A DNA stretch of 50,354 bases from Gammaproteobacteria bacterium (lineage in GTDB: Bacteria; Pseudomonadota; Gammaproteobacteria; Steroidobacterales; Woeseiaceae), in NCBI GenBank assembly GCA_029863305.1, contig JAOTVR010000018.1:1-50354 (forward strand), in the 5' to 3' direction. This document shows positions 31,170 to 46,574 of the stretch, piece by piece. The notes beneath the pieces are model-generated. The model saw only the letters and a list, made by a program, of their open reading frames with translations, ran no database searches and was not told where the DNA came from. Each line of letters begins with the position of its first letter. Position 1 is the first letter of the stretch. Both the position numbers and the translations under genes were made by a program.

Positions 31170-31325
31170 TTATTGGTCGCACTCGTCCCGGCGACCACAT
31201 CCGCCGCACTTCATCGACTTCGTCTTCGCATCAGGATCGTGTCGCGACAACCACACCTGGAAAACTGCCCAGAGCGCGCACAGCAAAACGATGGCGAGCA
31301 GAGAAAGAAGATAGCCAGTCATCAT
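31170..31325 (-). CDS. 51-aa membrane protein with Cys cluster, possible NqrM-like factor
   Basis: A previously unlisted small gene: ATG at 31325, TAA at 31170-31172. The protein has one hydrophobic helix (residues 5-26), then a charged linker and the C-terminal motif 'MKCGGCGRRDECDQ' with Cys40, Cys43 and Cys49. It begins 15 bases after the rnfA stop on the same strand. NqrM (DUF539) is a small protein of the same plan, one helix plus a cytosolic Cys cluster, needed to mature the iron site of NqrD/NqrE. RnfA and RnfE are the homologues of those subunits. A role in Rnf iron-site assembly is inferred; sequence similarity to NqrM is only general. Confidence 0.6.
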   Translation of the reverse strand: MMTGYLLSLLAIVLLCALWAVFQVWLSRHDPDAKTKSMKCGGCGRRDECDQ

Positions 31326-31340
31326 CTCAGTACAAATCTC

Positions 31341-31919
31341 TCAGGCCGAACTGAACAACCCGGCAAAACCCATAAACGCCATCGACAAAACGCCAGCGAT
31401 GATCAGGTTCATCGCGGTGCCTTTAATTAATTTCGGGATGTTCGACAACTCCGATTCTTCGCGCAGGCCGGCAAGCAGGACCAGCGCCAGCGTAAAACCG
31501 ATACCGGCGCCGAGCGCATAAACGATGCCTTCCCAAAAACCGTAGCCGCGGTTGGTCGCGAATATCGCGAGACCCAGGATCGCACAGTTCGTTGTAATCA
31601 ACGGCAGGAAGATTCCCATCGCGCGAAATAGCGCGGGGCTCAGTTTCTTGATCAGCATCTCGATAAACTGCACGGTACTCGCGATGACTACGATGAAGCA
31701 GATCAGCCGCAGATACGGTGCATGAATCAACACATACGTGTTGAGTACCCAGGCGCACACCGCAGTCACCAGCATCACGAACGTTGTCGCAAGCCCGAGC
31801 CGCGCCGAGGTTTCGAGCGAGCCGGACACGCCAAGGAACGGACACAAGCCGAGAAAATAGGTCAGCACGAAGTTATTGACGAGCAACGCACTGATGAAGA
31901 TCCAGAGAAGGTTGTCCAT
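31341..31919 (-). CDS. rnfA: Rnf electron transport complex subunit A
   Basis: A protein of 192 residues with six membrane helices. 'NNFVLTYFLGLCPFLGVSG' and 'PLITTNCAILGLAIF' carry the two conserved cysteines of the RnfA/NqrE family, which with RnfE bind an intramembrane iron-sulfur centre. The length is normal. Its ATG overlaps the rnfE stop by one base (31919). In gene order it is last of the recognised rnf genes, unlike the enterobacterial rsxABCDGE order. It transfers electrons across the inner membrane as part of the ion-translocating ferredoxin:NAD+ oxidoreductase. Confidence 0.96.
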   Translation of the reverse strand: MDNLLWIFISALLVNNFVLTYFLGLCPFLGVSGSLETSARLGLATTFVMLVTAVCAWVLNTYVLIHAPYLRLICFIVVIASTVQFIEMLIKKLSPALFRAMGIFLPLITTNCAILGLAIFATNRGYGFWEGIVYALGAGIGFTLALVLLAGLREESELSNIPKLIKGTAMNLIIAGVLSMAFMGFAGLFSSA

Positions 31920-32563
31920 TAGTTACCACCTCTCTCTGCCGCGGCGACGTCTTCCAGGAACTCGTCCTTCTTTAGCCTGAACCAGTTGAAAAACAGCAGA
32001 ATGACGCCCAGCGTCAGGAAGCCGCCCGGCGGCAGGATCATGATCACCCAGGGCTCGAAATTCTCGCCGAAGAGCTTCATCCCGAACAGTGCGCCGTCGC
32101 CGAGTATCTCCCTGACGGAGCCGAGCGAGAGCAGCGCGAGCAGGAAACCGCTCGCCATGCCCATCGCATCCATTACTGCGAGTTTCGTCGGGTACCTCGA
32201 TGCAAAGGCTTCTTGCCGTCCCAGGATCAGGCAGTTCGCCACGATCAGGGGAATGAACGCACCGAGTTCCTTGTGCACCGCCGGCACGAGCGCGAGCAGC
32301 GTATAATCGGCAATGGTCACGAAGGTCGCGATGATGATGATGAAGCAGGAGATGCGTACCTGCTTCGGAATCAGGTGACGAAACGTCGATACGAGGAAGC
32401 TCGATCCCACGAGCACGAAGAAGGTTGCCATTCCCATCGCAATCGCGTTGATCGCCGAGTTGGTGACGGCGAGCATCGGGCACATCCCCAGAACCTGGAC
32501 GAACACAGGGTTGTCGCGCCAGATGCCCTTGATGAATTCTTCGTGGAACTCGTTCTTTTTCAT
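31919..32563 (-). CDS. rnfE: Rnf electron transport complex subunit E
   Basis: A protein of 214 residues, homologous in fold to RnfA. It has six helices, and the cysteine motifs 'VQVLGMCPMLAVTNSA' and 'PLIVANCLILGRQEAFA'. The 'GMCPMLAVT' and 'NCLILGRQEAFAS' forms are diagnostic of RnfE/NqrD. With RnfA it forms the inverted-repeat membrane core that holds the iron centre. ATG 32563 overlaps the rnfG stop by four bases. The C-terminal tail is charged and cytoplasmic. Confidence 0.96.
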   Translation of the reverse strand: MKKNEFHEEFIKGIWRDNPVFVQVLGMCPMLAVTNSAINAIAMGMATFFVLVGSSFLVSTFRHLIPKQVRISCFIIIIATFVTIADYTLLALVPAVHKELGAFIPLIVANCLILGRQEAFASRYPTKLAVMDAMGMASGFLLALLSLGSVREILGDGALFGMKLFGENFEPWVIMILPPGGFLTLGVILLFFNWFRLKKDEFLEDVAAAERGGN

Positions 32564-33237
32564 TGGTCTGCCTCGGTTCCAGCAGTCTCTGTCGCTTCGA
32601 GCCTCGGCTCAGACCCTGGCTCCGGCAGTTGCGCCGACCAATCGGCGTGGGTCTCGTTGATGATTCTGACAACGGCCTTGGAAGAAATGGTTGCACCCGT
32701 AATCGCGTCAATCTCGTTCGGCCGACTCTTCGTGCCTTTCTTGACCGCAACGATCTCCGGCTCTACGGACAAGGCACTGAAGCCGCTGACAAATACGGCA
32801 TCCTTGTAGATCTTGTCACCCAGCCCCGGTGTCTCGCGGCTCTCCAGGATTTCCATGCCGACGACGTTTTTCTCGTCTGGCCGGTAACCATAGAGCAGTG
32901 CGATCGTGTCCTGAAACCCGGGGCCGGCGCCGGGCATCGCATAACCCACGAATGCGCTGTGTTCATCGTAACCTCCGTAAACAACGGGCTCATCCTTGTC
33001 CGGTCTATCTACTGCGACGAGTTCGCCATCCCGGTAAACGAGCGCCTGCATCTGGCTGACGCCGGGCAGTACCTTGAAAACCGCCTCGCGCAGCTCGCGA
33101 GCCTTGTTCGCGGTAATCGTCGGTAACGTCGACTCATAAATGCCGATGATCGCAATGCCCGATACCAGCCCGGCGATTGCCAGCGTCAGCACGAGCCGCA
33201 TCGAACCGGAAGCGCCGCTGTCCGTGGGTGCGTTCAT
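32560..33237 (-). CDS. rnfG: Rnf electron transport complex subunit G (covalent FMN)
   Basis: A protein of 225 residues. One N-terminal helix ('LVLTLAIAGLVSGIAIIGI') anchors a periplasmic FMN-binding domain. The motif 'DAITGATISSKAVVRIIN' contains the threonine to which ApbE attaches FMN. 'ETPGLGDKI' is also conserved. The C-terminal tail beyond 'ADWSAQL' is Pro/Glu-rich and probably disordered. It overlaps rnfD and rnfE by four bases each. No apbE gene lies in the window, so the flavin transferase must be encoded elsewhere. Confidence 0.95.
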   Translation of the reverse strand: MNAPTDSGASGSMRLVLTLAIAGLVSGIAIIGIYESTLPTITANKARELREAVFKVLPGVSQMQALVYRDGELVAVDRPDKDEPVVYGGYDEHSAFVGYAMPGAGPGFQDTIALLYGYRPDEKNVVGMEILESRETPGLGDKIYKDAVFVSGFSALSVEPEIVAVKKGTKSRPNEIDAITGATISSKAVVRIINETHADWSAQLPEPGSEPRLEATETAGTEADQ

Positions 33238-34253
33238 TTCGAATCAGTCCCGCGACCAAACACCCGCGGTTGCGTGTAGCGATCAATCAGCGGGGTTGCC
33301 GCATTCATCAACAGGATCGCGTACATAACACCTTCGGGCAGGCCGCCGAACACGCGAATCAACATGACGAGGACACCGACACCGATGCCGAAGATCCACG
33401 CTCCGCGTGGTGTGACCGGTGAGGTAACCGGATCGGTTGCCATGTAGATCGCCCCGAGTAACAAACCGCCCGAGAAGACCGAAAACAAGGGCGAGGGGAA
33501 ACGCACCGCATCAACGAGGCTCAAGATAGCGGAGAAGATCAGCACACTGAGCAGGATGCTTGCCGGTATGCGCCAGTCGAGGTCCCGCCTGAGCCAAAGA
33601 TAAACGCCGCCGAGCAACAGCAAAAGGCCGCTGGTTTCCCCGAGCGATCCGCTGATCTTGCCAAACATCAGGTTTGTGAGCGGCGTAACTTCCTGCTCGA
33701 ATTTCATCATGCCGAGCGGGGTTGCGGCGGTGACGCCGTCGACGGGTGCCTGCATGAATGGCAGTGCGAGATTGCCCGCGTAGACTTGGAAGAAGCCGCC
33801 GTCACTGACCGCTGGCACCCAGGTGGTCATCGCGATCGGAAATGTCGCGAGCAGAAAGGCACGGCCGAGCAGGGCCGGATTGAACAGGTTATGACCGAGG
33901 CCGCCCCAGATCACCTTGCCGAGGGCGATGCCGACGAAGCCTCCAAGAAATGCCATCCACAACGGCAGGCCGGGGGGCAAGGTGAGACCAAGTAACAGTC
34001 CCGTCAGTATGCCGCTGGCGTCTCGAAGCGACTCGCCGCGAGCTTCCTGGCTCGCAAACAGCCACTCCGCCATAACCGCGCCGGCAATGCAGGCGCCAAG
34101 AATCAGGGCCGCGCTGAGACCGAAGAACCACATCGATGCGGCCGTCGCTGGCGCCAAGGCATACAACACGTCACGCATCGCCTTCGGCGTGGTCATCCCC
34201 TGGCGCAGCAGTGGCGCATGGAACAGCAACAGATCCGGGTCGGTTTTCTTCAC
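33234..34253 (-). CDS. rnfD: Rnf electron transport complex subunit D (covalent FMN)
   Basis: A protein of 339 residues starting at GTG 34253 (VKKTDPDLLLFHAPLL), which overlaps the rnfC stop as GTGA. A longer frame to 34352 would run back into rnfC. It has nine or ten membrane helices. 'DGVTAATPLGMMK' holds the threonine for covalent FMN, a slight variant (AAT) of the usual GAT. 'HNLFNPALLGRAFLL' and 'ATDPVTSPVTPRG' are family hallmarks. It passes electrons within the membrane and is implicated in ion translocation. Confidence 0.94.
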   Translation of the reverse strand: MKKTDPDLLLFHAPLLRQGMTTPKAMRDVLYALAPATAASMWFFGLSAALILGACIAGAVMAEWLFASQEARGESLRDASGILTGLLLGLTLPPGLPLWMAFLGGFVGIALGKVIWGGLGHNLFNPALLGRAFLLATFPIAMTTWVPAVSDGGFFQVYAGNLALPFMQAPVDGVTAATPLGMMKFEQEVTPLTNLMFGKISGSLGETSGLLLLLGGVYLWLRRDLDWRIPASILLSVLIFSAILSLVDAVRFPSPLFSVFSGGLLLGAIYMATDPVTSPVTPRGAWIFGIGVGVLVMLIRVFGGLPEGVMYAILLMNAATPLIDRYTQPRVFGRGTDSK

Positions 34254-35590
34254 GCGTCGGGCTCCTTGCGGCGTGCAAGGTCGTCTTTTGCCGTGCGAAT
34301 GAGCTGCACGATCGGGATATTCGACGGGCAGGCAAACGTGCAGCAACCACATTCGACGCAGTCAAAGACGTGGTACGCCCGCATCTCATCGAACATGCGC
34401 GACTTGGACAAACGCGCCAGTCGCGATGGGTTCAGGAAGTACGGGCAGGCTTCGAGGCATCGGCCACAGGAAATGCAGGGGTACTCCTTGCGCCTGGCCG
34501 TCTGCTCCTCGGTAAACACGAGGACACCCGAGCAGCCTTTCAAAATTGGCACATCGAGGCTGGCGATGGGGCGACCCATCATAGGCCCGCCCATGATGAT
34601 CTCCCGGCTGCCCGGCTTGAGGCCACCGCAGAATTTGACGACGTCCCGAACAGGTGTCCCGAGCGGCACAATCAGGTTGGCAGGGTAGCTTACGCCCGGA
34701 CCCGCCACGGTCACGACACGTTCAATCAGCGGCATGCCGCGCAGGAAGTAGTCTGCGATCGCGACGATAGTGCCGACGTTGTTGACGTTCACCTCGACAT
34801 CGCGCGGTAACAGCCCGGCAGGCACTTCCTTGCCGAAGACGCTCTTGATCATCATCTTTTCGGCGCCCTGCGGATACTTGACCTTGAGCGGGACGACACG
34901 CACCGGGTCACCCGGCCGGATATGATTGCGAATGATCTCGATTGCGTCGGGCTTGTTCATCTCGACGCCGATGACGGTTTCTTCGGCACCGAGCTTTTGC
35001 CGCACGATCTCGGCGCCTTCGAGCAGCGCTTCGGGCCGCTCTACCATCAGCCGGTGATCGGTAGTCAGGTAGGGTTCGCACTCCGCACCGTTGATCAGCA
35101 AATGCCGGATCCTGATGCCGTCGGGCACCGAGAGTTTCACATGAGCAGGAAACGCCGCACCGCCCATGCCGACGATGCCGGCGATCTGTACGGCTTCGAT
35201 GAATTCCTCGAGCGTCAGAGACTGCCAGTCCACAGCGGCGCTGGCGTCGACCTGCTGGGTCGCGAACGGATCTGCTTCGATCGCGATCGCGGGCGCAAAC
35301 CGTCCGTCGACACCGCGATAGTCTCCGACCTCCCTGACCGTGCCGGTGACAGGACTGTGCAGGCCTGTGGATACGAAGCCGCCCGGTTTTGCAATCAGCT
35401 GACCGCGTTGAACACGCTCTCCGGCTGCAACGATAGCTTTGGCTGGCACGCCGATATGTTGTCCGAGGGGCATGACGTAGTGCTTGCCGAAGGGCACGCG
35501 CTGGATTGGCAAGTCTGCGGTCTGCTGCTTGTGATGAGCCGGATGCACTCCGTGCTCGAAGTTGCGGCGCAGGAAGCGGAGAGCTTTCAT
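34250..35590 (-). CDS. rnfC: Rnf electron transport complex subunit C (NADH/FMN and 2x 4Fe-4S)
   Basis: A protein of 446 residues starting MKALRFLRRNFEHGVHP at 35590, five bases after the preceding stop. The Rossmann-like part has 'GIVGMGGAAFPAHVKL' and 'INGAECEPYLTTDHRLM', the NADH/FMN-binding signature. Two 4Fe-4S motifs follow: 'CISCGRCLEACP' and 'CVECGCCTFACP'. At about 440 residues it is the short form, as in clostridial and Bacteroidetes Rnf, and lacks the long Ala/Lys-rich tail of enterobacterial RsxC (about 740 residues). It is the site of NAD+/NADH exchange on the cytosolic face. Confidence 0.96.
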   Translation of the reverse strand: MKALRFLRRNFEHGVHPAHHKQQTADLPIQRVPFGKHYVMPLGQHIGVPAKAIVAAGERVQRGQLIAKPGGFVSTGLHSPVTGTVREVGDYRGVDGRFAPAIAIEADPFATQQVDASAAVDWQSLTLEEFIEAVQIAGIVGMGGAAFPAHVKLSVPDGIRIRHLLINGAECEPYLTTDHRLMVERPEALLEGAEIVRQKLGAEETVIGVEMNKPDAIEIIRNHIRPGDPVRVVPLKVKYPQGAEKMMIKSVFGKEVPAGLLPRDVEVNVNNVGTIVAIADYFLRGMPLIERVVTVAGPGVSYPANLIVPLGTPVRDVVKFCGGLKPGSREIIMGGPMMGRPIASLDVPILKGCSGVLVFTEEQTARRKEYPCISCGRCLEACPYFLNPSRLARLSKSRMFDEMRAYHVFDCVECGCCTFACPSNIPIVQLIRTAKDDLARRKEPDA

Positions 35591-35595
35591 CGCTG

Positions 35596-38500
35596 TCAGT
35601 CCCGCTTCTGCGATGCCAGCTGCAGCAGGCGGCTGCGGATCTTGCTCGCAATCTCGGCCTGTGTCTTCTCCTGGATTTGCCGGATCTCTGCAGCGGATGC
35701 TTGTTTCTGAGCATCGAGCGCGGCCTGGTGCTCGTCGGCGAGCTGCGCACGGATTTCCTGCTCGAGTCGCTCGGTAAACGGTGTGACGATGCCGGCGAGC
35801 TCCTGCAGCGTGCGCCAGTTCGCGAGACACTGGTCGGCAGTATCCGCAAGCACCTGCGAAACAGCGTAACGTTTCTCTTCTTCATCATCGCCAGTCGCGA
35901 TATACGGCGTCTTGCCCTTGCGACCCTTCGCGTCCAGTTGCAGCCACTCGTCGAACGGCGTGGGTGCCGCCGCTTCTGCGGTCAGTGGCTTGAATGCCGA
36001 GGCAAATCGTTCTTGTCCGAGCGCCCAGTCGGCCAGCGTCAGAAGTCGTTCCCCGTCCTGGCCCGGCGCGAGCGTGTCGCCCGATGCGGGGTTGCCGTCA
36101 AGGCTTATGCGCAACCCGAATACACCCTCGGCGTTGGGGTCATAACGGAACAAGGGTAATGCGCGGCTCGCGACCGCGAGTCGCGCCTGGGCAATCGTTT
36201 GCCCGCTCGGGAAGCCATGTCTCGACGGACTCGGGGCGTAGACCTGGATCAGGGCGGGGCCCTCATAGCGCAGTGCCTGCAGCATGCTCTCGCCGAGGTG
36301 CACGGGATCGGCGATCGATGTCTGTGCAACAAACGCGTTGCGTTGCGCCAACGCCAGTAGCGCGAGATGTCCTCGTGGGTTGTTGCGGCGCACCTGGCGA
36401 TCCCCGACGTCCAGCTCACTGAGAACCAGCACCTTGACCGGCAGACCCGAATTCAGCAGCCAGATTAGCTGGCTCAGCCCCTGCCCGGCGAGCATCTCGT
36501 CGCTGCCGAGCAGCACGAGCGGTGGACTGACGTCCAGCTCTTCGTCACTCAGATCCTTCCATTGCAGGCTCGCGAGCGCTTCGCGCTTCCAGTCGGCGCC
36601 GTCGGGCTGATCGATTTCAATGCGTGCGAGACGCAGCAGACGGATCAGTTCGGTAGTCTCGTCCAGGTGTCCCTCGACCAGCCCCGCAGCGAGCTGTGCG
36701 GCGTCACCGGTCATATCGACGAGTACCGGTGCCTGGAACGGATTATGCGGAAACGCGCCGGCCCAGGCGGCGGTGCTGCCGCCGGCGACGGTCAGGCCAT
36801 AACGGGCGCGGCCGAGACCATGTTTGCCCTCAACGAGGCGATGCTGTGCCGCTGTAATACGGTTGGACAGTTCGATCAGGCGAAGCAGATGGTCGGTATC
36901 AATCGAGTGGTCGCCGCTTGCATTGCCGACGCCCTCGGCCAGGTCCTTGAGATCGACGCGCGGACTCGTCGTGCGTTTCAGCTTCTCGGTGACCGCATCA
37001 AGATCTTCCACTGCCAGCGTGCTCGAGAGTGTTTCATTGATCAGCGCGGAGACTGACTCGCCCGCTTCGGCAAGTGATTTCGCAAAGCGTTGCACGATAG
37101 GTTGCTGATGGAACTCGGTCGCGGACAGGATCAGCCTGACCGCCATTTTCTCGCCAGAGCCGGCTTCCGCGGGATCGCCGCCAGCAAGAGCGAACTGGCA
37201 ATAGCGCGATAACAGGATGGCCGCCATCTTGCCGACATCAGGGTGTTCGGCAACGCGTTCGAGCGACTCCGATGGCGTGTCAGGGGTGGTCGAGAATACC
37301 GACCAAAGTTGGCGGGCTTGCTCGACCGAAACCGCGTCCTGACCGTTGATGAGCAGTGCTTCGGGCTCGCAAGCGCTGACACAGATACCGCAGGCCTTGC
37401 ACGCTTCCGGGTTGATCACGACTGACAGCAGTTCCGCGCTGTCTTTCTTTCGCGCCTCGGCAGCAGAGAAAAACGGTTCCGTGACGGCGACGGGCAAGGC
37501 ACCGAGCGCCGCAGTAATCTTCTCGACACCTTCCTGAATCGCCTGCTTGCGTTCTTCCGGAAGCGGCATCTTGTCGTTCAGCCAGGCATAGGCGTCTTCG
37601 AGCAGCTGGCCAAACGTCGGTGCCACCGCATCACTTTTCCTGGAGCTCGAGACAATGCGCGATGCCAGTTTTGATGCAATCTGGCGCACGGGCTCTGCGC
37701 CGGTGCGGCTTATGCCCGCGTCGATGAGAGCTGCGGGTGTCGATGCGACGACGCCGATCGCACTGTCCGGGCAGTGCGTCCAGCACTTGCCGCAGCCCGT
37801 GCACAGCGTCGGGTCGAAAGTCGGTAACGTGCCGCCTGCGTTGCTGGTGTCATTAAAGGTCGAGCTCAGCGGCGGCATCGTACCGGTGGCGAGAAACGGG
37901 TCCGCCGTCAGGCTATCCGTCCGGCCGTCACGGTAGAGCACGCCGGTCTGGTCCCAGAAGCGGGGCAGGCTCGCGAAATTGTCGTCGTTTCTGCCGAGAT
38001 GGCGGACCGCTGCCGGTGCCTCACCTTGCCAGCGATCCGGTGTGCCGGCCGCGGGGACGTTGTGGCTGTCGGCTTCGACAAGCTGTTCGAGGCCGGCCTG
38101 GAAATCGGCCATGATCTTGTCACTGCGATTTTCGTCGTCAGCGTCGATCAGGCTGTTGCGCGCGGCGATTATCCGGCGCGTCTTGTGGTCGAGCAGCCCG
38201 GTTTTGATCAGGACACCGAACAGTCCGCCAAGCAAGGCTTCCGTCCCCACGGCGTCGTTCTCCAGCGGCACGCGAAAGGTCCTCGCTTCGCTGCCGATGA
38301 CTATCTCACCGCGCACCACGTCGACCGTGACGTCGGCCACAAGGTCATCGCCGGGGTCGTGCAGGGTTTCATCGCCGCAGGTGAGCCAGTCGGTATCGGT
38401 AGCTGACCAGCGCTCCCATGTAAATCCAGGACGGGAGCGTACCCGTCCGCCTTCGAGTGCGTGGAGCAGCGCAGCGGTCGTGCCGAGGAGTCCAATGTCA

Positions 38501-39975
38501 CCTTTGCCACGGCGTATTGCGATCGTCAGCGAGTTCTTCGGATTCGGTACCGATGCGTCTTTTGCTGCACGGATGCCGGATTCGGCGGCGTTCGGATAGG
38601 CACGGCGCAGTGCGTCGAGCAGCACTGCGCGTTTGGGTTGCTCGCCGGACGTATCGTCGAAGGCCAGTCCCAGAAACAGCGGTGCTGTCAAATCTGTATC
38701 AGCACGCGTGCACAGCTCGACGAGGTCTGTAACCCGTAACGGCAAACCGCCAACACCGTAAACGACGGGGGAACAGCTCGCGGGTCGTTTGCCGCCGAGG
38801 CGATCCATGCTGGCGCGAAGTTCACGCGTCAGCGGTGGCTCAGCAGCCATCGCGGCATCGGTGCGTTCGAGCACGAACACGCGGTCTCGCCCCTCGAGTG
38901 CAGCGACGATGTCGGCGCCCGGGAACGGTCGCAGTGTGTGAATGCCGACGACGCCCACCTTGATCCTGTGTTGATTACGCAGGCAATCCGCAGCTACCCG
39001 CGCTGTTTCGACCGCGGCACCCTGTGCCACCAGTACGGTCTTCGCATCGTCAAGCCGGTAACGGGAAATCGTGTCGTAGTGTCTGCCGGTCTTGCGCGCG
39101 AAGAGTTCGAACGATGCGCGTAAAGAGTCTTCGACGAAAGCATCGAAGAACGGCCGGCGCGCCAACGCGCCGAGCGCGAAGCTCTCTTTTTCGAACAGGG
39201 CGCCGATGAGCACGGGTTCGTCGAGGTCGTGCCAGGCGGGAACGCGCCGGCGCATCTCACCGAACAACAGTTTTTGCGCCGCCGTCGGTGCCACTATTTG
39301 CTCACGTGCCGCGCCTATGAAACCGTTGACCTGGGCCGGCGACAGCAGCCGCACGTCCTGGACGGCAAGCGCGGTTTGTTCGCCGTCCATGAGAACCATG
39401 CCGGGCAGTAGCGATTCTTCGGCCACTCGCCTCGCGATGTAAGTGAAGTCGACAGCCTCTTGTACATTGCTGGCGAACAGCAGGAAGAAACCGGCATCCG
39501 CGCTCAGGTGAACCGTCTCGTGGCCGCTACCGAGAGCCGCACCGTGTGCTGCCGCCGCGCGTGTCGCGACGTGCAATACCAGCGGAGCGTGCTTGCCGGC
39601 GGCCGATATCAGGAGGTCCTGTGCCGCGCCGATATCAGTGCCGGACAGGAACGCGGTCGCGCGCCTGCCGGCCAGCGCCAGGCCGGTCGCTGCAGCGACG
39701 ATGCCGCGGGGCCCCTCGGTGGTTTGTGCCGAGAGTGCTTCGCCAAAGAGATTTGTGCCGCCCTGGTCGAGTTCATCCAGCCAGACGGCATCGGAGTCGG
39801 CGGATGGCAACGACCCGCCCAATACGGCGTGGCTGGCCATGCCTGCCTCTGACAATGCGACGGCGCTGTTGCCGTCGAGCACGCAATTCAGTCCCTCCTC
39901 GCGAATGTCAGACCCGGCCGGCGCACCGAACACGTCACGGTACCAGCGGATCGCGATGTTACGCAGACCGGCCAT
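35596..39975 (-). CDS. 1459-aa NifJ-like protein with degenerate active sites
   Basis: The protein follows the domain order of pyruvate:ferredoxin oxidoreductase (NifJ). A pyrimidine-binding-like domain and transketolase C-terminal-like domain lie at about 25-430 ('ADAGFFLLFASNVQEAVDFT', 'VGIHTLRPFPG'), and a gamma-like domain at about 480-620. A 2x 4Fe-4S region has CTGCGKCWTHCP near 725 and CKACGICVSACEP near 860, and a TPP-domain-like module lies at about 1050-1340. The YPITPSS motif, the NifJ proximal cluster (CAGCGE) and the GDGW...NT thiamine site are not recognisable. The C-terminus is a coiled coil preceded by 'NWRTLQELAGI', shared with the 819-aa protein. ATG 39975 overlaps the rnfB stop. 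Inferred role: structural or electron-wiring subunit. Confidence 0.7.
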   Translation of the reverse strand: MAGLRNIAIRWYRDVFGAPAGSDIREEGLNCVLDGNSAVALSEAGMASHAVLGGSLPSADSDAVWLDELDQGGTNLFGEALSAQTTEGPRGIVAAATGLALAGRRATAFLSGTDIGAAQDLLISAAGKHAPLVLHVATRAAAAHGAALGSGHETVHLSADAGFFLLFASNVQEAVDFTYIARRVAEESLLPGMVLMDGEQTALAVQDVRLLSPAQVNGFIGAAREQIVAPTAAQKLLFGEMRRRVPAWHDLDEPVLIGALFEKESFALGALARRPFFDAFVEDSLRASFELFARKTGRHYDTISRYRLDDAKTVLVAQGAAVETARVAADCLRNQHRIKVGVVGIHTLRPFPGADIVAALEGRDRVFVLERTDAAMAAEPPLTRELRASMDRLGGKRPASCSPVVYGVGGLPLRVTDLVELCTRADTDLTAPLFLGLAFDDTSGEQPKRAVLLDALRRAYPNAAESGIRAAKDASVPNPKNSLTIAIRRGKGDIGLLGTTAALLHALEGGRVRSRPGFTWERWSATDTDWLTCGDETLHDPGDDLVADVTVDVVRGEIVIGSEARTFRVPLENDAVGTEALLGGLFGVLIKTGLLDHKTRRIIAARNSLIDADDENRSDKIMADFQAGLEQLVEADSHNVPAAGTPDRWQGEAPAAVRHLGRNDDNFASLPRFWDQTGVLYRDGRTDSLTADPFLATGTMPPLSSTFNDTSNAGGTLPTFDPTLCTGCGKCWTHCPDSAIGVVASTPAALIDAGISRTGAEPVRQIASKLASRIVSSSRKSDAVAPTFGQLLEDAYAWLNDKMPLPEERKQAIQEGVEKITAALGALPVAVTEPFFSAAEARKKDSAELLSVVINPEACKACGICVSACEPEALLINGQDAVSVEQARQLWSVFSTTPDTPSESLERVAEHPDVGKMAAILLSRYCQFALAGGDPAEAGSGEKMAVRLILSATEFHQQPIVQRFAKSLAEAGESVSALINETLSSTLAVEDLDAVTEKLKRTTSPRVDLKDLAEGVGNASGDHSIDTDHLLRLIELSNRITAAQHRLVEGKHGLGRARYGLTVAGGSTAAWAGAFPHNPFQAPVLVDMTGDAAQLAAGLVEGHLDETTELIRLLRLARIEIDQPDGADWKREALASLQWKDLSDEELDVSPPLVLLGSDEMLAGQGLSQLIWLLNSGLPVKVLVLSELDVGDRQVRRNNPRGHLALLALAQRNAFVAQTSIADPVHLGESMLQALRYEGPALIQVYAPSPSRHGFPSGQTIAQARLAVASRALPLFRYDPNAEGVFGLRISLDGNPASGDTLAPGQDGERLLTLADWALGQERFASAFKPLTAEAAAPTPFDEWLQLDAKGRKGKTPYIATGDDEEEKRYAVSQVLADTADQCLANWRTLQELAGIVTPFTERLEQEIRAQLADEHQAALDAQKQASAAEIRQIQEKTQAEIASKIRSRLLQLASQKRD

Positions 39976-40817
39976 CAGGCTGTCCCCGCCTTTCTCGATT
40001 CCTGCTCCTGAAACTGTTCGCGCTCGAGCCAGACGATCGACCGTGTGGCACAACGAAAGGTCGCTTCCGGTCTTGCCTCGCCGCCGCTGGCGTAATTGAT
40101 AACGGGAAGGTTGCCTTGCATGGTGATCAGCCCGGGTGCCGCGTCCGCGACGCACTTGCCGCAAGCATCACAGGCGACCTTGCACAGTCGCGTTGCGGCC
40201 TCCCCGGCCAGCGGGATATTGCATTGCACATACAGCTTCTGATTGAGTGGCACGAGTTCGAACAGGTCCCTCGGGCAGGCTGCGACACAATCCGGGCAGG
40301 CGCGGCATTTCTCGGTGTCCACTTGCGGAAGGCCATTGGCGTTCATGTGGATAGCGTCGAATGTGCAGGCGGCCTCGCAATCCGCCAGCCCGAGGCAACC
40401 CCAGGCGCATCCTTTGCCACCGCCCGACACGATGTCCGCCGCGCGGCAGCCCTCGAAGCCCTGGTATTCAGCAATCTGGTGGGCCTGCAGGTGGCCGCCA
40501 TTGCAGCGCAAGCGGGCAACCAGCTTCTCGGCACGGCCCGCATCGACCTCGAGATACTCGGCAATCTGCTCGATGGCCTCATCGGTACTCACGGTGCACT
40601 GACCGGGATCGACTTCACCGGCCACCAGTTTTTCTGCGAACGGCAGGCATCCGGGCTGCCCGCAGGCGCCACAGTTGGTTCCGGGCAGCAAGTTATTCGT
40701 GGCCTCGATGCGAGGGTCTTCGTCGACCTTCAAAAAGCGCTGCGCGATCGCGAGAATCGCGCCGAAGAACAGGCCGATTCCTACCATTATGGCTGGCGCT
40801 ACGAGCAGACTGTTCAT
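39975..40817 (-). CDS. rnfB: Rnf electron transport complex subunit B (ferredoxin-type)
   Basis: A protein of 280 residues with one N-terminal helix ('LLVAPAIMVGIGLFFGAIL'). It carries the RnfB-specific cluster motif 'TNCGACGQPGCLPFA' and several further Cys motifs: 'CAWGCLGLADCEAAC', 'CRACPDCVAACP' and 'CKVACDACGKCV', for additional 4Fe-4S centres. The last CxxC group is followed by 'ADAAPG', lacking one expected Cys-Pro. RnfB is the entry port for electrons from reduced ferredoxin. The ATG shares one base with the stop of the 819-aa gene, and its own stop overlaps the start of the NifJ-like gene. This places it exactly between the two unusual large proteins. Confidence 0.95.
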   Translation of the reverse strand: MNSLLVAPAIMVGIGLFFGAILAIAQRFLKVDEDPRIEATNNLLPGTNCGACGQPGCLPFAEKLVAGEVDPGQCTVSTDEAIEQIAEYLEVDAGRAEKLVARLRCNGGHLQAHQIAEYQGFEGCRAADIVSGGGKGCAWGCLGLADCEAACTFDAIHMNANGLPQVDTEKCRACPDCVAACPRDLFELVPLNQKLYVQCNIPLAGEAATRLCKVACDACGKCVADAAPGLITMQGNLPVINYASGGEARPEATFRCATRSIVWLEREQFQEQESRKAGTA

Positions 40818-43276
40818 CAGTTAAACGGTGCGGCGCGGGCGATCAGTTCATCGAGGCCTGGCTCACTGGGATCCAGAGGCTTGCCCGGATGGATGCACTT
40901 GGCGGGACAGATTTCGGCTGCCGCCACGAGATCGGCATAGGAGCCGGCCCTGGGATCCTTGATGATCGCCTGCTTGTCGTCGTTGTACGCAAACATCATC
41001 TTGTTGATGCTCATGCAGTCGTCACAAGTCGTACACATCGCCGTGTCGAGCCAGGGTTCGTCGAAACTGATCTCCTCTTCGGCCTCTTCTGCTGCCTCGG
41101 GCTCCGGCTCAGGGGCCACCTCCTCAGCCGGGGCACCCGTCACTGCCGGCGCCGCGGCCGGCATCGAGGCCAGCGGACCGCCACCGGCGACCATGCCTGA
41201 CAGGTCGGCGCCCATCAGCACGTCGACGAGTTGTCCCATCGCCTCGCCGGCGGCTTCCGAGCGAGCACTTTCCAATTGCTCTTGGTGTTCTTTCAAAAGT
41301 TGTTCGCGTTCAGCGTCGATCGCCGCCTGTTGCTCCTGGATGATCCGGTCGATCGCCTGTTCGACGTAGAAGTTCTGGATTCCGGCCAGTTCCTGCAGCG
41401 TGTGCCAGTAATTCAGCCGGTCGCGACACGCGAATACGAGGGCGCGCGACACCACGAGCCGGAGAAGCACACCCTGATCGTCAATTGCCCAAATCGTCGG
41501 TACCAGGTGGTCGAGCCGTTCGTCCCCGGCCTGCAGATATTGATCGATCGGTACGAGGTCGTCGGACTCGAAGCCAGCGGGTACCGTTCGAAAGTGCTCG
41601 TGCAGTCCCGGCATCAACAGCGCGTAATCGGCGAACGTAAACGCAAGGTCCATCTCGGTAAGTTCGCCTTCGGCGTTGCGGTACTCGAGCTTCTCGACGG
41701 GCCAGTCGTTTTCGGCCTGCGGGTTGCCACCGAAGCTGACGCGCTCAGCAGCACGGTCACCGGCATCCGGATTGACGAGAATGAACGGGTGGGCGCGACT
41801 CTCCAGCGCGGCACTCGCGACGAACCAGGCATCGAGCAGCGGTTTCCTGGTTTTGGTCTGGGTCCCGCGATTTATCAGGTGCAAACTCGCGCGATTGCTG
41901 TCCAGCGCGCAGAGAAACCCCGCTAACAAGTCATCGTGGCGTGCGGCAGAGGTTTGCGCGACAACGACCTGGCGATGCCCAATGCCGAAGTAGGCGAGCT
42001 CGAATCGATACGAGTCGAAGGGGTCCTCGCCAGGTTTCGCGCCTGGATTATCGTAGGCACGGACCCAGCTGAGTATGTGTACCGGCATACGCGACCCGAG
42101 CAGATGCGAGAACGACGGCAGGCCGTCGCCCGCAAGGTAGTCCGCCGATACCAGCGCCACCACGCGGGTAACGAGCTGGATCTCTTCGTTCGAAAATACC
42201 TGCCAGTCGAAACTGGCGAACCAGGAGTCGTGTATTGCCGGATCGTAGTTGCCGTCGATTTCAAGTGCCGCGATTCGGAGCGCGGCAAACAAGCGTGCGA
42301 AGCGAGCGGCGTCGCGTTTGAAAACCTCGGCAGCCTTCGCACATGGGTCGTCGCTCTGAACCAGCTCCAGCTCGGGCAGCCTGGCGAACCAGGGATCGTC
42401 CAGTTGACCGACGAACCTGACCAGCACGGGGCCATCCTCCCAGTCCCGCAGGTCTTTGAGCGCGAGTTCGATTCTGCGGAGCCGCTCAGCCGGCATCTCC
42501 ATCGAGCCGTGGGTGCGCTGATCGAGTATTCCGGACAGTGCGTCGGCCTCGAAATGACGCGACCCCGGCCCGACGCGGCTCGTGACACTTCCGGGTTGGT
42601 TCGCGTCCGCTGACTTGGCCTTTTCGACATCCAGCAGCGATTGCAGTCCGTGAATGCGTTTGTCGATCTGCTGGCGAAGTTGCTTACGGCTTTGGCCATG
42701 GCGGTGTCGAATCGCATGCAACATCAGGTGCAGCGACACGCGCGGTCCGTAAGCGAGGAATTGCGCGCCCTCTGCTATCGTGTCCGCGAGTCTGTCGAGC
42801 TCGGCACCCAGTTTTTCCCGGTTCGCCGGATCCAGATCGAGTTGCTTCTGCAGTGCCGCCGCCGCCTTCGCAAACAACCCGGGGGCATCAACGGGATCAG
42901 GACCGTCCAGATGCTGCCGCAGATAGCGCTCTATCCACGGCAGATTATCCTTCAGAATCCTTGCGTCTTCGGCCGCGGGCGCGAGCGTGTCAAGTGCCTC
43001 GGCAAGCTGCTCGCTGGCAGGTCTTGCGAGTACCGGCAGGGTCTTGCCGTCAGGGGGAATCAGGTACAGCGGATACTGATAACGAATGGCAGACGCATCG
43101 CGGTACGGATTCAGCAGGGCAGGCAAAACCGCGCCAGCCGGTTTTGTGGTATTCGCCGCGGCCGCGGGTTCGCCATAGTGGAAACGGCGGAGCAGGTTGA
43201 TTACATCTGCGTCGGCACCCCCGTTTGTCCCGTCCGTGGCGAGCGTGTCGTCTTTATTTTCCGATACGGAGTTCAT
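40817..43276 (-). CDS. 819-aa ferredoxin-tailed protein, paralogous module to the NifJ-like protein
   Basis: Residues 1-330 are largely helical with no recognised family. Residues about 340-650 align in order with the C-terminal part of the 1459-aa protein. Examples are 'LLGSRMPVHILSWVRAYD' with 'LLNSGLPVKVLVLSELD', 'RQVVVAQTSAARHDDLL' with 'NAFVAQTSIADPVHLGE', 'RAHPFILVNPDAGDRA' with 'RALPLFRYDPNAEGVF', and 'LNYWHTLQELAGI' with 'LANWRTLQELAGI'. A Glu/Gln/Ala coiled coil and an Ala/Pro/Glu linker follow. The C-terminus is a ferredoxin-like domain 'CTTCDDCMSINKMMFAY' ... 'EICPAKCIHPG' with the four Cys for one 4Fe-4S cluster. It sits between korB and rnfB and probably passes electrons from one to the other; that is inference. 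Confidence 0.65.
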   Translation of the reverse strand: MNSVSENKDDTLATDGTNGGADADVINLLRRFHYGEPAAAANTTKPAGAVLPALLNPYRDASAIRYQYPLYLIPPDGKTLPVLARPASEQLAEALDTLAPAAEDARILKDNLPWIERYLRQHLDGPDPVDAPGLFAKAAAALQKQLDLDPANREKLGAELDRLADTIAEGAQFLAYGPRVSLHLMLHAIRHRHGQSRKQLRQQIDKRIHGLQSLLDVEKAKSADANQPGSVTSRVGPGSRHFEADALSGILDQRTHGSMEMPAERLRRIELALKDLRDWEDGPVLVRFVGQLDDPWFARLPELELVQSDDPCAKAAEVFKRDAARFARLFAALRIAALEIDGNYDPAIHDSWFASFDWQVFSNEEIQLVTRVVALVSADYLAGDGLPSFSHLLGSRMPVHILSWVRAYDNPGAKPGEDPFDSYRFELAYFGIGHRQVVVAQTSAARHDDLLAGFLCALDSNRASLHLINRGTQTKTRKPLLDAWFVASAALESRAHPFILVNPDAGDRAAERVSFGGNPQAENDWPVEKLEYRNAEGELTEMDLAFTFADYALLMPGLHEHFRTVPAGFESDDLVPIDQYLQAGDERLDHLVPTIWAIDDQGVLLRLVVSRALVFACRDRLNYWHTLQELAGIQNFYVEQAIDRIIQEQQAAIDAEREQLLKEHQEQLESARSEAAGEAMGQLVDVLMGADLSGMVAGGGPLASMPAAAPAVTGAPAEEVAPEPEPEAAEEAEEEISFDEPWLDTAMCTTCDDCMSINKMMFAYNDDKQAIIKDPRAGSYADLVAAAEICPAKCIHPGKPLDPSEPGLDELIARAAPFN

Positions 43277-43288
43277 TATTGCTCCGGG

Positions 43289-44242
43289 CTAGATCGCGAA
43301 GTGATCCAGTGCCTTGTTCATTCCCGCCAGTTTGTCATCGACGCTCATCCCCAGGCCGACCGAAGACATCAGGTCGTAGCGGGGCGCATCGGGATTGTGA
43401 TAGAGAATACCCAGCGGCAGGGCGGACTCGTCCTGCGCCAGCGCGCGGGCGGCAGCGAGATCCGACGGGTCATGCTCGGCGTGGTTCGGGAACAGTCGCT
43501 TGAGCGCATCGTCGACCTGCACACCTTTCTCGTGTGTGATCAGTTTCAGTCTCGCCGGATTATCCTGCAGGGACTTGCCAATCGATTCCACGTAAACCGG
43601 GCAGCGCTGGATAATCCGCACGAAGCTGGTGCCCTTGTGCTCGTGCGCCTTCTTGATCACCTCGTGCCGGAGCGGTGCGTTCCAGTCGACGATCTGGGCG
43701 ACAAAAGAGATATTGGTAACGCCAAGCGTCACGGACAGCGGATTCAGCGGGGGCAACAACGCGCCCGACGGATGGGTGTTGGTCGGCACATCCAGAGGCG
43801 TGGTCGGGGATGTTTGTTTCTTGGTCAGTCCGTAAATGCCGTTGTCGAATACCAGCAGCGTGATATCCATGTTGTAACGCAGGGCGTATATCCAGTGGGC
43901 GGCGCCAATCGAGAAACAGTCACCGTCGCCGGTTGCAACCCACACATCGAGGTCGGGGCGCCTCGACTTGATGCCGCATGCGACCGGCAACGCACGTCCG
44001 TGAAGGCCGTGAAACCCGTAGGTGTTCATGTAATGCGGCAGGCGGCTCGAGCAACCGATACCGGATACGGCTACCGTCTTCTCAGGCTTGATCTGGGCGT
44101 CCCGGCAGACCCGGTGTACCGCGGCCAGGATGCCATGGTCGCCACAGCCGGTGCACCAACGCGGCTCCGCACCGCAATAATCCTGTAACGTGAAATATCG
44201 ATCCTTGACCTCGAGGGACCAGTCACCTTTTAAGCCGAACAT
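43289..44242 (-). CDS. korB: 2-oxoacid:ferredoxin oxidoreductase beta subunit
   Basis: A protein of 317 residues. The thiamine site is intact: 'WVATGDGDCFSIGAAHW' and 'VFDNGIYGLTKKQTSPTTP'. The cysteines 'RWCTGCGDHG', 'SGIGCSSRLPHY' and 'IIQRCPVYVE' occupy the positions that bind the 4Fe-4S cluster in this family. It forms a complex with KorA to oxidise 2-oxoacids such as 2-oxoglutarate or pyruvate to acyl-CoA, reducing ferredoxin; the reverse reaction fixes CO2. The substrate cannot be fixed from sequence alone. Its ATG overlaps the korA stop by 13 bases, and the 819-aa gene follows after 12 bases. Confidence 0.94.
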   Translation of the reverse strand: MFGLKGDWSLEVKDRYFTLQDYCGAEPRWCTGCGDHGILAAVHRVCRDAQIKPEKTVAVSGIGCSSRLPHYMNTYGFHGLHGRALPVACGIKSRRPDLDVWVATGDGDCFSIGAAHWIYALRYNMDITLLVFDNGIYGLTKKQTSPTTPLDVPTNTHPSGALLPPLNPLSVTLGVTNISFVAQIVDWNAPLRHEVIKKAHEHKGTSFVRIIQRCPVYVESIGKSLQDNPARLKLITHEKGVQVDDALKRLFPNHAEHDPSDLAAARALAQDESALPLGILYHNPDAPRYDLMSSVGLGMSVDDKLAGMNKALDHFAI

Positions 44243-46386
44243 GCTTCTGCTCCTTCTGTCTCCGTGAGATTTGCGTCAATGACCCTGCCGATGGCGCCAG
44301 GCTGCAGCGGGTGACCCGGAACCTTGGACCAGCAGCCGATATCCATCAGCGTATGCGCCCGCAGTACGAGTGCAAGCTGCGAATAACGGCGGTTTTCCTC
44401 GTTGATCAGCGGCGCACCGGGATCGTCGCTGTAATTGATCTCGATGGTCATGACCTTCTTGAAGCGCGAAAAAATCTCCTTCAGGCCGGGCTCGAGGGGC
44501 GACAGAAATCTGAGATGCGTCGAGGACACTTTCTTTCCCTGTGCCCTCGCCAGATCGACCGCTTCCTCGATGGCCCCCAACGTCGAACCCCAACCGACGA
44601 TCAGCAGGTCCCCGCTGGGATCACCATGGATCTCGGGGGGCTTCATCGTTGCGCCGAGCGCCGTCAGCTTGCGGCTGCGCATATTCATGCCTTCCTGGTT
44701 CGACGCGGAGTCGTATGCGATCTTGCTGTCGCGGTTGTGTGCAAGGCCGGTCAGGATGTACTCGCCGCCGCGCATGCCCGGGATAGGCCTGTCTGACAGA
44801 CCTGTAGTCTCGTCCCAGTCGTATGGCGACACGTCCTCGTCCCAGGCCGACTGGTCCAGTGGTGCGGCAAACCACTCGTCAGTCACTTCGGGCCGTGCAA
44901 TCGGTTGAACGCCGGTGGCGAGATTCGCATCCGTCAACATGATCACCGGTGTGCGGAATGACTCGGCCAGCTTGCGCGCCATGACGACGAAGTGGAAACA
45001 CTCCGAAATCGTGGCCGCAGCAATAACGATTTTGGGTGAGTCACCCGGCGCGCCATAGAGGCTCGCAAGCAGGTCTCCCTGTTCGACTTTGGTCGGAAGA
45101 CCGGTAGACGGGCTGCCGCGCTGCACGTCGATAATCACGAGCGGGACCTCGGCCATGACCGCGAGGCCGATCATCTCGGTCTTCAACGCCATGCCGGGGC
45201 CGGATGTGATCGTACAGGCTGTCTTGCCGGCATAGGACGCACCGATCGCAAACCCGATCGCCGCGATCTCATCCTCGGCCTGGTGGACGAAACCACCGGT
45301 CAAACGAAAATCTTCGGCAAGATAGTGAGACGCCGAAGTTGCCGGCGTGATCGGATACATCGCGACCATCTCTATGCCGGCAGCCATGACCCCCAATCCG
45401 GCTGCCGTATTGCCATTGATAACCACGGCCGACTCCATGCGATATTCCTCGGCCGTGGGGATTTCGATTTCGTAGTCCAGGTTTTCGCGCGCAAAAGCGT
45501 AGCCGGCGTCGAACAAGGCATGGTTAATCTCGATGACCTTCTCGCTTTTTCGTCTGAACGTATTCGCGATTTCATTCTTGGCCATGTCGGTATCGCGGGA
45601 AAGAATTCGGCAGAGCATCCCGAGCACGAACATGTTTTTGCCTTTGCGAGGGTCGGGTACGAGTTTGAGACATTCCTTCTGGATCGGCAGTTCGTGCACG
45701 ACCAGTCCCTGCGCGCCGAAATCGGCGAGCGCCTCCTGATACTGCTTGCGGATCTTTTCATCGGGATCTTCGGCCCACATGCTCTCAAGTAAAACGATCG
45801 TGCCTTTTTTGTAAGCGCCGTTATCGATGCGGGAATAAAGCACCTGCTCGTTAAACGCGACGACCATGTCGGCTTCGTTGCCCATGTTGGTCACTTCTTT
45901 CGATCCTACGCGAACGCGAATGCCGCTGGCGCCCTGACGTTCTCGCGCGGGCGGCTGGATCTCGGCCGGTATGATCTCTACCGTCCAGACACCGTTACCC
46001 ATCTTGCCGCTCACCAGCCCCAGTACCTGTCCACATTTCTGCGCACCCTCTCCGGAATCGCTGACGATTTCGACGATGTACTGGTCCAGCTGGCGAAGAC
46101 CATGCTGCGTTTCCCCGGATCCATCCTGGTCTTTGGCCAGGGGCGCAACGGTACCGGAGCGCTGACTGGCCTGTTCGGCACGAATCTTTTCGATTTCATC
46201 GCGAAATTCCTGGATGGCGGCCCAGCGCGCCTCCCGAGCCGCTTCGATGTCGTGCGTATGCAGCGAGCGCCGCATGTCGTAGCCGAGAATGTCACGAAGC
46301 GGCCGCGGCACGGCGAGCTTCACCCACCAGGTATTATCCCGCTTGAACAAGTACTTGGTGTCGCCTGCGATCTGTGAATTTGTCAT
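44230..46386 (-). CDS. korA: 2-oxoacid:ferredoxin oxidoreductase gamma-alpha subunit with N-terminal recombinase-type domain
   Basis: A protein of 718 residues. Residues about 9-70 ('YLFKRDNTWWVKLAVPRPL', 'RRSLHTHDIEAAREARWAAI') match the DUF6538 N-terminal domain otherwise found on tyrosine recombinases. After a polar linker (70-98) comes the gamma domain ('IVEIVSDSGEGAQKCGQVLG', 'ADMVVAFNEQ'). The alpha domain follows with the catalytic 'MYPITPATSASHYLAE' near 345 and 'DEIAAIGFAIGASYAGK'. A normal gamma-alpha fusion is about 620 residues, so the N-terminal part is extra. The frame is continuous with no sign of a sequencing frameshift. ATG 46386 has 'cagggacc' upstream. It is the first gene of the OFOR-Rnf operon. 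Confidence 0.9.
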   Translation of the reverse strand: MTNSQIAGDTKYLFKRDNTWWVKLAVPRPLRDILGYDMRRSLHTHDIEAAREARWAAIQEFRDEIEKIRAEQASQRSGTVAPLAKDQDGSGETQHGLRQLDQYIVEIVSDSGEGAQKCGQVLGLVSGKMGNGVWTVEIIPAEIQPPARERQGASGIRVRVGSKEVTNMGNEADMVVAFNEQVLYSRIDNGAYKKGTIVLLESMWAEDPDEKIRKQYQEALADFGAQGLVVHELPIQKECLKLVPDPRKGKNMFVLGMLCRILSRDTDMAKNEIANTFRRKSEKVIEINHALFDAGYAFARENLDYEIEIPTAEEYRMESAVVINGNTAAGLGVMAAGIEMVAMYPITPATSASHYLAEDFRLTGGFVHQAEDEIAAIGFAIGASYAGKTACTITSGPGMALKTEMIGLAVMAEVPLVIIDVQRGSPSTGLPTKVEQGDLLASLYGAPGDSPKIVIAAATISECFHFVVMARKLAESFRTPVIMLTDANLATGVQPIARPEVTDEWFAAPLDQSAWDEDVSPYDWDETTGLSDRPIPGMRGGEYILTGLAHNRDSKIAYDSASNQEGMNMRSRKLTALGATMKPPEIHGDPSGDLLIVGWGSTLGAIEEAVDLARAQGKKVSSTHLRFLSPLEPGLKEIFSRFKKVMTIEINYSDDPGAPLINEENRRYSQLALVLRAHTLMDIGCWSKVPGHPLQPGAIGRVIDANLTETEGAEACSA

Positions 46387-46574
46387 GCTCTGGTCCCTGC
46401 CGTACCTGCTGTTGAAAAACTGTACCTTTTCGCTCGTGGGGCGTTTATTGCATGGGGTCTGAGGCAAGTAAATAGGTATAAACATCCGTGCTATAGGTGC
46501 TTGTTCGCGAGTGTTTTCTGCGCTTCGGCAAACGCTTGACAGGTGCCCGGGCCTGCCGCCAGGCCGGCGACCGG

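Follow-up and report, generated by a model that had tools for sequence, protein, structure and literature searches.

At 31170-46386 on the minus strand of contig JAOTVR010000018.1 from a Woeseiaceae bacterium of marine sediment (assembly GCA_029863305.1), the whole of which (50,354 nt) is referred to here as the window, eleven open reading frames are arranged in the order korA-korB-P819-rnfB-P1459-rnfC-rnfD-rnfG-rnfE-rnfA, followed by a gene for a 51-aa membrane protein. The block brings together the genes for a two-subunit 2-oxoacid:acceptor oxidoreductase (KorAB), for the Rnf complex (RnfABCDGE, ferredoxin:NAD+ oxidoreductase) and for two large Fe-S proteins, P819 and P1459, which by their sequences both appear to be decayed pyruvate:ferredoxin oxidoreductases (PFOR). 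Neighboring frames overlap by 1-13 bases at seven of the ten junctions (korA/korB by 13; rnfC/rnfD, rnfD/rnfG and rnfG/rnfE by 4; P819/rnfB, rnfB/P1459 and rnfE/rnfA by 1) and are separated by 5 (P1459/rnfC), 12 (korB/P819) and 15 bases (rnfA/51-aa protein) at the remaining three; the start codons of rnfC and rnfD were our choice, and the junction lengths there depend on it. A first-pass annotation of this DNA, made without database searches, had described eleven frames on one strand in this region, with gaps of at most 15 bases and overlaps at most junctions, and had named them as korAB and a complete set of rnf genes. All of this was confirmed, the gene names by Pfam and NCBIfam with KorB and RnfG scoring below the NCBIfam cut-offs.

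P1459 (35596-39975, minus strand; 1459 aa) has the length of a PFOR, but Pfam misses POR domain III in it, and it scored 138 bits of 911 against TIGR02176. Among 41 aligned rows of P1459 type (38 of them distinct, as three are duplicates), none has kept the YPITPS, GDG or NTGGQ motifs or any cysteine of the proximal cluster, these positions being either substituted or gapped. The same residues are retained in 30 intact PFOR relatives wherever the alignment covers them. A role of P1459 as a working pyruvate enzyme was thus ruled out by the active-site table. Both distal four-cysteine clusters were kept in 39 of the 41 rows, indicating that P1459 is a catalytically dead protein which retains the two distal 4Fe-4S clusters present in PFOR but absent from KorAB. 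A structure was predicted for the last 820 residues, and this C-terminal half is predicted to fold as PFOR domains V-VI.

P819 (40817-43276, minus strand; 819 aa) is related to P1459 (29% identity over 362 aa, E 2e-21), and in a single-chain model it is predicted to adopt the same fold of domains V-VI. This PFOR-like model ruled out that P819 is a plain ferredoxin protein. The NTGGQ loop is absent from the P819 rows, and a GDG triplet that occurs in several of them is out of register, five residues past the aligned thiamine position. In the single-cluster ferredoxin tail, the four cluster ligands are invariant in all 48 rows, which comprise the window protein and 47 of 54 P819 stretches. Sequence and model together indicate that P819 corresponds to the C-terminal half of a PFOR without the thiamine site, to which a ferredoxin tail is attached. 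Compared with homodimeric PFOR/NifJ (PDB 6cin, 1b0p, 7plm), both proteins share the predicted V-VI fold and P1459 also the two distal cluster motifs, whereas the thiamine motif, the substrate loop and the proximal cluster are missing from P1459. The first-pass annotation had recognized two extra Fe-S proteins, one of them NifJ-like, but it had missed their decay and the loss of the thiamine sites, and this loss changes the mechanism that has to be considered.

The intact enzyme of the block, as judged from its conserved active-site residues, is KorAB. KorA (44230-46386, minus strand; 718 aa) is a gamma-alpha fusion with POR, POR_N, PFOR_II and DUF6538 domains (TIGR03710, 504 bits; cut-off 482.75), and its YPITP motif and conserved Arg/Thr residues are kept in essentially all of 54 rows. 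KorB (43289-44242, minus strand; 317 aa), the beta subunit with TPP_enzyme_C and PFO_beta_C domains (TIGR02177, 225.8 bits; cut-off 261.9), has intact thiamine and Fe-S ligands: GDGD, N134 and C214 are kept in 62 of 62 rows, and C30, C33 and C64 in 61, with one gap. The nearest solved relative of both subunits is the two-subunit 2-oxoglutarate:ferredoxin oxidoreductase (OGOR) of Magnetococcus marinus (6n2n_A and 6n2n_B), with which they share the two-chain organization, the thiamine motif and the cluster cysteines. The substrate is therefore probably 2-oxoglutarate, although for KorB a Sulfolobus 2-oxoacid:ferredoxin oxidoreductase (OFOR) follows close behind (171.1 against 168.4 bits). Enzymes of this two-subunit class contain the thiamine-proximal cluster only, and their electrons normally go to a separate ferredoxin; Fer4 is not among the domains that Pfam identified in the two subunits. 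Unlike the Magnetococcus enzyme, KorAB of the block is encoded within an Rnf operon together with a PFOR-like relay, and KorA of the Woeseiaceae type carries an additional DUF6538. This domain spans residues 12-69 counted from the start at 46386 (window positions 46180-46353; an alternative in-frame start lies upstream at 46485) and forms part of KorA in the window and in four loci of the Woeseiaceae type (L020, L025, L035, L045); it was not found in KorA of L046 or L047. In the metagenome-assembled genomes (MAGs) L043 and L078, korA is broken into several reading frames.

All six core Rnf subunits are encoded together on the minus strand, RnfA, B, C, D and E (like KorA) above the curated NCBIfam cut-offs and RnfG by its Pfam domain. 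RnfB (39975-40817; TIGR01944, 80.1 bits, cut-off 68.7) is a long variant of 280 aa with 20 cysteines, all of which are invariant in 71 of 71 rows. The remaining subunits are RnfC (34250-35590; TIGR01945, 510 bits), RnfD (33234-34253; TIGR01946, 333 bits; PF03116), RnfG (32560-33237; PF04205 FMN_bind, 61 bits; TIGR01947, 91.7 bits with a cut-off of 102), RnfE (31919-32563; TIGR01948, 228 bits) and RnfA (31341-31919; TIGR01943, 235.8 bits). The block thus resembles the known Rnf complex in its full set of confirmed subunits and differs from it by also encoding KorAB and two PFOR-derived Fe-S proteins.

The arrangement found in the window, korA-korB-P819-rnfB-P1459-rnfCDGEA, is termed form A here. 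A scan of one genome each of 84,980 species gave at least 551 stretches, of all forms taken together, that tblastn matched at E <= 1e-3; the 80 best-matching stretches (L035-L114) are part of a set of 91 loci (L020-L114 without the duplicates L039, L040, L042 and L072). All ten genes were present on one strand in 24 of the 91 loci, including L043 with its fragmented korA, and 15 more hold consistent parts, which, as far as could be seen, are truncated where the contig or the locus stops. This count scores the presence of the ten genes, and their order was read separately from the locus maps, where L020 and L059 show rnfG before rnfD owing to over-long frames while the matches give the usual order. 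The 24 loci belong to Woeseiaceae, other Gammaproteobacteria (Thiodiazotropha and a Competibacteraceae MAG), Planctomycetota, Bacteroidota, Myxococcota and one unclassified MAG, and the partial locus L078 adds Calditrichota. The ten genes hence recur in 24 loci outside the window, and the gene order is not unique to this assembly, a possibility which the first-pass annotation had named as speaking against its proposal. Chance adjacency or an assembly artefact was ruled out by this recurrence, together with the component sets in the isolate records of Thiocystis violacea DSM 208 and Algoriphagus limi.

Form A is scattered and uncommon. A P819 match occurred in 15 of 40 genomes, including that of the window; by a reading of identity and length, ten of these have form A, in some cases partial (the window's own, G002, G006, G016, G017, G018, G019, G022, G024 and G027), and five match only through the related form B described below. 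When the two best candidates of each genome were scored in a spread of 397 genomes across the phylum, form A was matched at full length in the window's own genome alone. Eight further genomes, five of them of one genus, contain long PFOR frames of 1651-1724 aa, and many other matches represent ordinary NifJ of about 1200 aa. In 30 genomes of this spread, frames of 547-592 aa matched the thiamine-domain part of the PFOR query with 153-174 bits.

In form B, rnfB is followed by an intact PFOR of about 1650 aa with a C-terminal single-cluster ferredoxin tail and then by rnfC and the remaining rnf genes. The succession rnfB-PFOR-rnfC was observed in 21 loci, counting L089 and three loci with KorAB-like genes on the other strand, and the hosts include members of the window's genus as well as Thiothrix, Sedimenticola and Acidobacteriota. 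A third arrangement, form C (korA-korB-rnfB-intact PFOR-rnfCDGEA), is present in L076, L084 and L114, all of them Gemmatimonadota. In Algoriphagus (L164, L099, L107), an intact PFOR, Rnf, KorAB and P819 are encoded in one cluster, which in the isolate A. limi (L164) reads PFOR-rnfCDGEA and then rnfB-korA-korB-P819 on the same strand. In the isolate T. violacea DSM 208, a single contig of 37.7 kb holds P819, rnfB-P1459-rnfCDG and, on the strand opposite to the latter, korA-korB, while an intact PFOR of the form B type is encoded on another contig. In six genomes whose P819 was retrieved without adjacent Rnf (L048-L052, L054), a relative of P1459 with 44-49% identity, incomplete in several cases, was identified every time.

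In a quick tree of RnfC with 87 rows, the PFOR-linked RnfC, including that of the block, were separated with an SH-aLRT of 100 from 24 further RnfC of this genus and order, which were taken to be ordinary as their contigs had no P819-type match. A branch with a support of 94 sets form A apart, and the Gemmatimonadota loci join it at 90. A careful tree of RnfB, RnfC and RnfD together, from 63 loci, likewise has a branch that sets off form A (bootstrap 95, SH-aLRT 90), and form A plus four Gemmatimonadota loci are apart from the rest at 100/100. One of these loci, L089 (Gemmatimonadales), starts just before rnfB, so that KorAB may be cut off, and it was assigned to this set by hand. L092 was labelled by mistake as a member of the group with KorAB and PFOR in the quick tree and was counted as form B in the other; its neighboring KorA- and KorB-like genes are 28% and 36% alike and are located on the opposite strand. 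Gammaproteobacteria occupy several separate form A branches of the RnfB, RnfC and RnfD tree, and L094 joins Bacteroidota, which suggests that the block has been transferred between lineages as a unit. In addition, pairwise distances of KorB, P819, RnfB, RnfC and the PFOR-like protein correlated with r of 0.91-0.98 over 33-36 loci (none of 2000 permutations as high); of the 36 loci, L079, L085, L090, L099 and L107 do not belong to form A. With most Woeseiaceae removed (26 loci), r was 0.77-0.86 for four of these pairs. The cross-phylum linkage, the co-variation and the PFOR-derived protein between rnfB and rnfC lend support to the dedicated KorAB-Rnf unit, one part of the interpretation in the first-pass annotation.

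The most likely history is a stepwise one, in which an intact, tailed PFOR would first have joined the Rnf operon between rnfB and rnfC, KorAB would have joined second, and the PFOR would then have been duplicated, have lost catalysis and have been kept as an adaptor. This order is inferred from the ordinary-Rnf root, which is available only in the quick RnfC tree.

Based on these findings, we consider it probable that the block encodes a 2-oxoacid-to-NAD+ ion-pumping system in which electrons from KorAB pass through a dead-PFOR relay into RnfB. At its thiamine site, KorAB would carry out the oxidative, CoA-dependent decarboxylation of the 2-oxoacid, P1459 would supply the two distal PFOR-type clusters in trans, and the P819 tail would supply the terminal ferredoxin-like cluster. 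The two proteins would form a dedicated wire from KorB to RnfB that replaces or supplements diffusing ferredoxin, and transfer from RnfB to RnfC would reduce NAD+ and drive the export of Na+ or H+. A more far-reaching version is put forward tentatively, as we hold it to be a little less probable than its opposite: KorAB and Rnf might constitute a single ferredoxin-independent 2-oxoacid:NAD+ oxidoreductase ion pump, an Rnf supercomplex scattered over several phyla with a duplicated dead PFOR as wire, and form B of Thiothrix, Sedimenticola, Acidobacteriota and other lineages might be the surviving ancestor type, with an intact PFOR built into the Rnf operon.

Several observations weigh against such a coupling, the case for which is built on sequences and single-chain structure models. 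Foldseek TM-scores against whole PFOR chains were low for both models (0.31-0.47 for P1459, 0.13-0.24 for P819), as is expected for part-matches, yet they are no proof of the whole fold. Of the 24 contiguous form A loci, 21 are known to be MAGs, and the distance correlations partly reflect shared genome ancestry. A dead-type P1459 was not seen in L063, L086, L093 and L108, four of the 11 genomes searched, and KorAB-P819 also occurs without adjacent Rnf, e.g., in L108. Furthermore, the host of the window encodes the E1 component of 2-oxoglutarate dehydrogenase, and the need for KorAB is therefore not obvious. Finally, P1459 of two Phycisphaerales MAGs (L056 and L058) lacks two of the four cysteines in both clusters while the operon is otherwise complete, and a two-cluster wire is thus not universal. 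As these two loci have kept the P819 tail, P1459 might instead act as a structural clamp that sets KorAB on the membrane complex, with a path from KorB via the P819 tail to RnfB bypassing its clusters. The retention of both clusters in nearly all P1459-type rows speaks against this role, which we regard as unlikely.

The occurrence of KorAB-P819 away from Rnf and without dead-type P1459 means that P819 is not exclusive to this Rnf. In L108 (3962-12145), KorA-KorB-P819 is located beside NfnAB-like genes: an NfnA-like reductase with DUF6538, a DHODB Fe-S domain and a weak NAD-binding match adjoins an NfnB-like protein, possibly forming a KorAB-P819-Nfn module without Rnf. It may be speculated that KorAB uses P819 as an outlet to various partners, and that DUF6538 serves for docking. 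KorAB, P819 and Rnf could be co-expressed and linked by soluble ferredoxin, with the P819 tail as a ferredoxin on a tether that serves several acceptors, and the operon would then do no more than balance expression. The occurrence of KorAB-P819 away from Rnf and the dispersal of the genes in Thioploca- and Thiocystis-type relatives would fit such an arrangement. It leaves unexplained why a dead P1459 with conserved ligands should be positioned between rnfB and rnfC, and we consider it doubtful, if somewhat less so than the clamp.

With regard to the direction of electron flow through the proposed relay, Rnf and OFORs are reversible. For Rnf this is also stated in the abstract of PMC12174285, and both korAB and Rnf have been reported in sulfur oxidizers (PMC6315080, PMC4914600, in part), among which relatives of the block are found. 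NADH and the ion gradient might therefore push electrons via Rnf and P1459/P819 into KorAB for the reductive carboxylation of succinyl-CoA. Against this, a search for the RuBisCO large chain, the controls of which matched, found none in the host assembly (4.25 Mb, 200 contigs, 90% complete), and 2-oxoglutarate dehydrogenase E1 is present; the search for ATP-citrate lyase was uninformative, as its controls gave no match. Reverse operation thus appears improbable, and the possible role in CO2 fixation raised in the first-pass annotation received no positive support.

The host genome is, as judged by domain matches, rich in 2-oxoacid:ferredoxin enzymes, with seven places containing a POR domain, that of the window included. 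It also encodes a second full RnfC (C130:32995-34296) on a contig without a P819-type match. As both this RnfC and 2-oxoglutarate dehydrogenase E1 are encoded elsewhere, the block seems to supplement the standard parts rather than to replace them. A regulatory Rnf of the RsxA-G kind, which would keep a redox sensor reduced and have the OFOR genes adjacent by chance, could draw on RsxB and RnfE transcripts of Woeseiales at one site, for which PMC7451513 mentions oxidative stress. The second RnfC could fill that role, the KorAB linkage recurs across phyla, and we consider this explanation highly improbable.

The block is not described in the main text, as far as accessible, of the open-access literature searched (including PMC6593406, PMC4853749 and PMC12175321; supplements aside), and a term search of PMC7082342 returned nothing. 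In tubeworm symbionts, OGOR genes (korABCD) cluster with electron-transfer complexes, Rnf among them, according to excerpts of PMC6315080 and PMC11636981; there, a four-subunit OGOR is interspersed with Hdr-Flx in a cluster assigned to the reductive tricarboxylic acid (TCA) cycle, and these excerpts describe no PFOR-derived relay in an Rnf operon. Under sulfide limitation, dimeric korAB of the Riftia symbiont drops together with a gene called 'PFOR-like' (PMC11636981, in part). An additional cytoplasmic subunit has been reported for Azotobacter Rnf1 (PMC12174285, in part). The block resembles this system as an Rnf with extra soluble subunits, but its extras are PFOR-derived and linked to a 2-oxoacid enzyme. 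The Azotobacter subunit is presumably RnfH.

Soluble ferredoxin is commonly regarded as the carrier that ends at Rnf, and hard-wiring, if true, would send low-potential electrons to an ion pump without a diffusible carrier. Compared with 2-oxoglutarate dehydrogenase, energy could thereby be gained at a step of the TCA cycle, and hosts that are facultative or aerobic could lose fewer electrons to oxygen. The intact-PFOR, intermediate and dead-PFOR forms would represent a traceable case of an enzyme turning into a wiring part, and isolates with related sets (T. violacea DSM 208, A. limi, Thiothrix, Sedimenticola) make the system testable.

The last gene of the block (31170-31325, minus strand), downstream of rnfA, encodes the 51-aa membrane protein with a single span and a cysteine-rich tail. 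It was considered as a candidate NqrM; no Pfam match exceeded the cut-off, and the weak matches were only to FeoB_associated and an Fe-hydrogenase domain. Among 14 related frames identified by blastp, one is a duplicate and one, in L059, is a spurious frame overlapping rnfA; the 12 genuine relatives are all located in Woeseiaceae-type loci.

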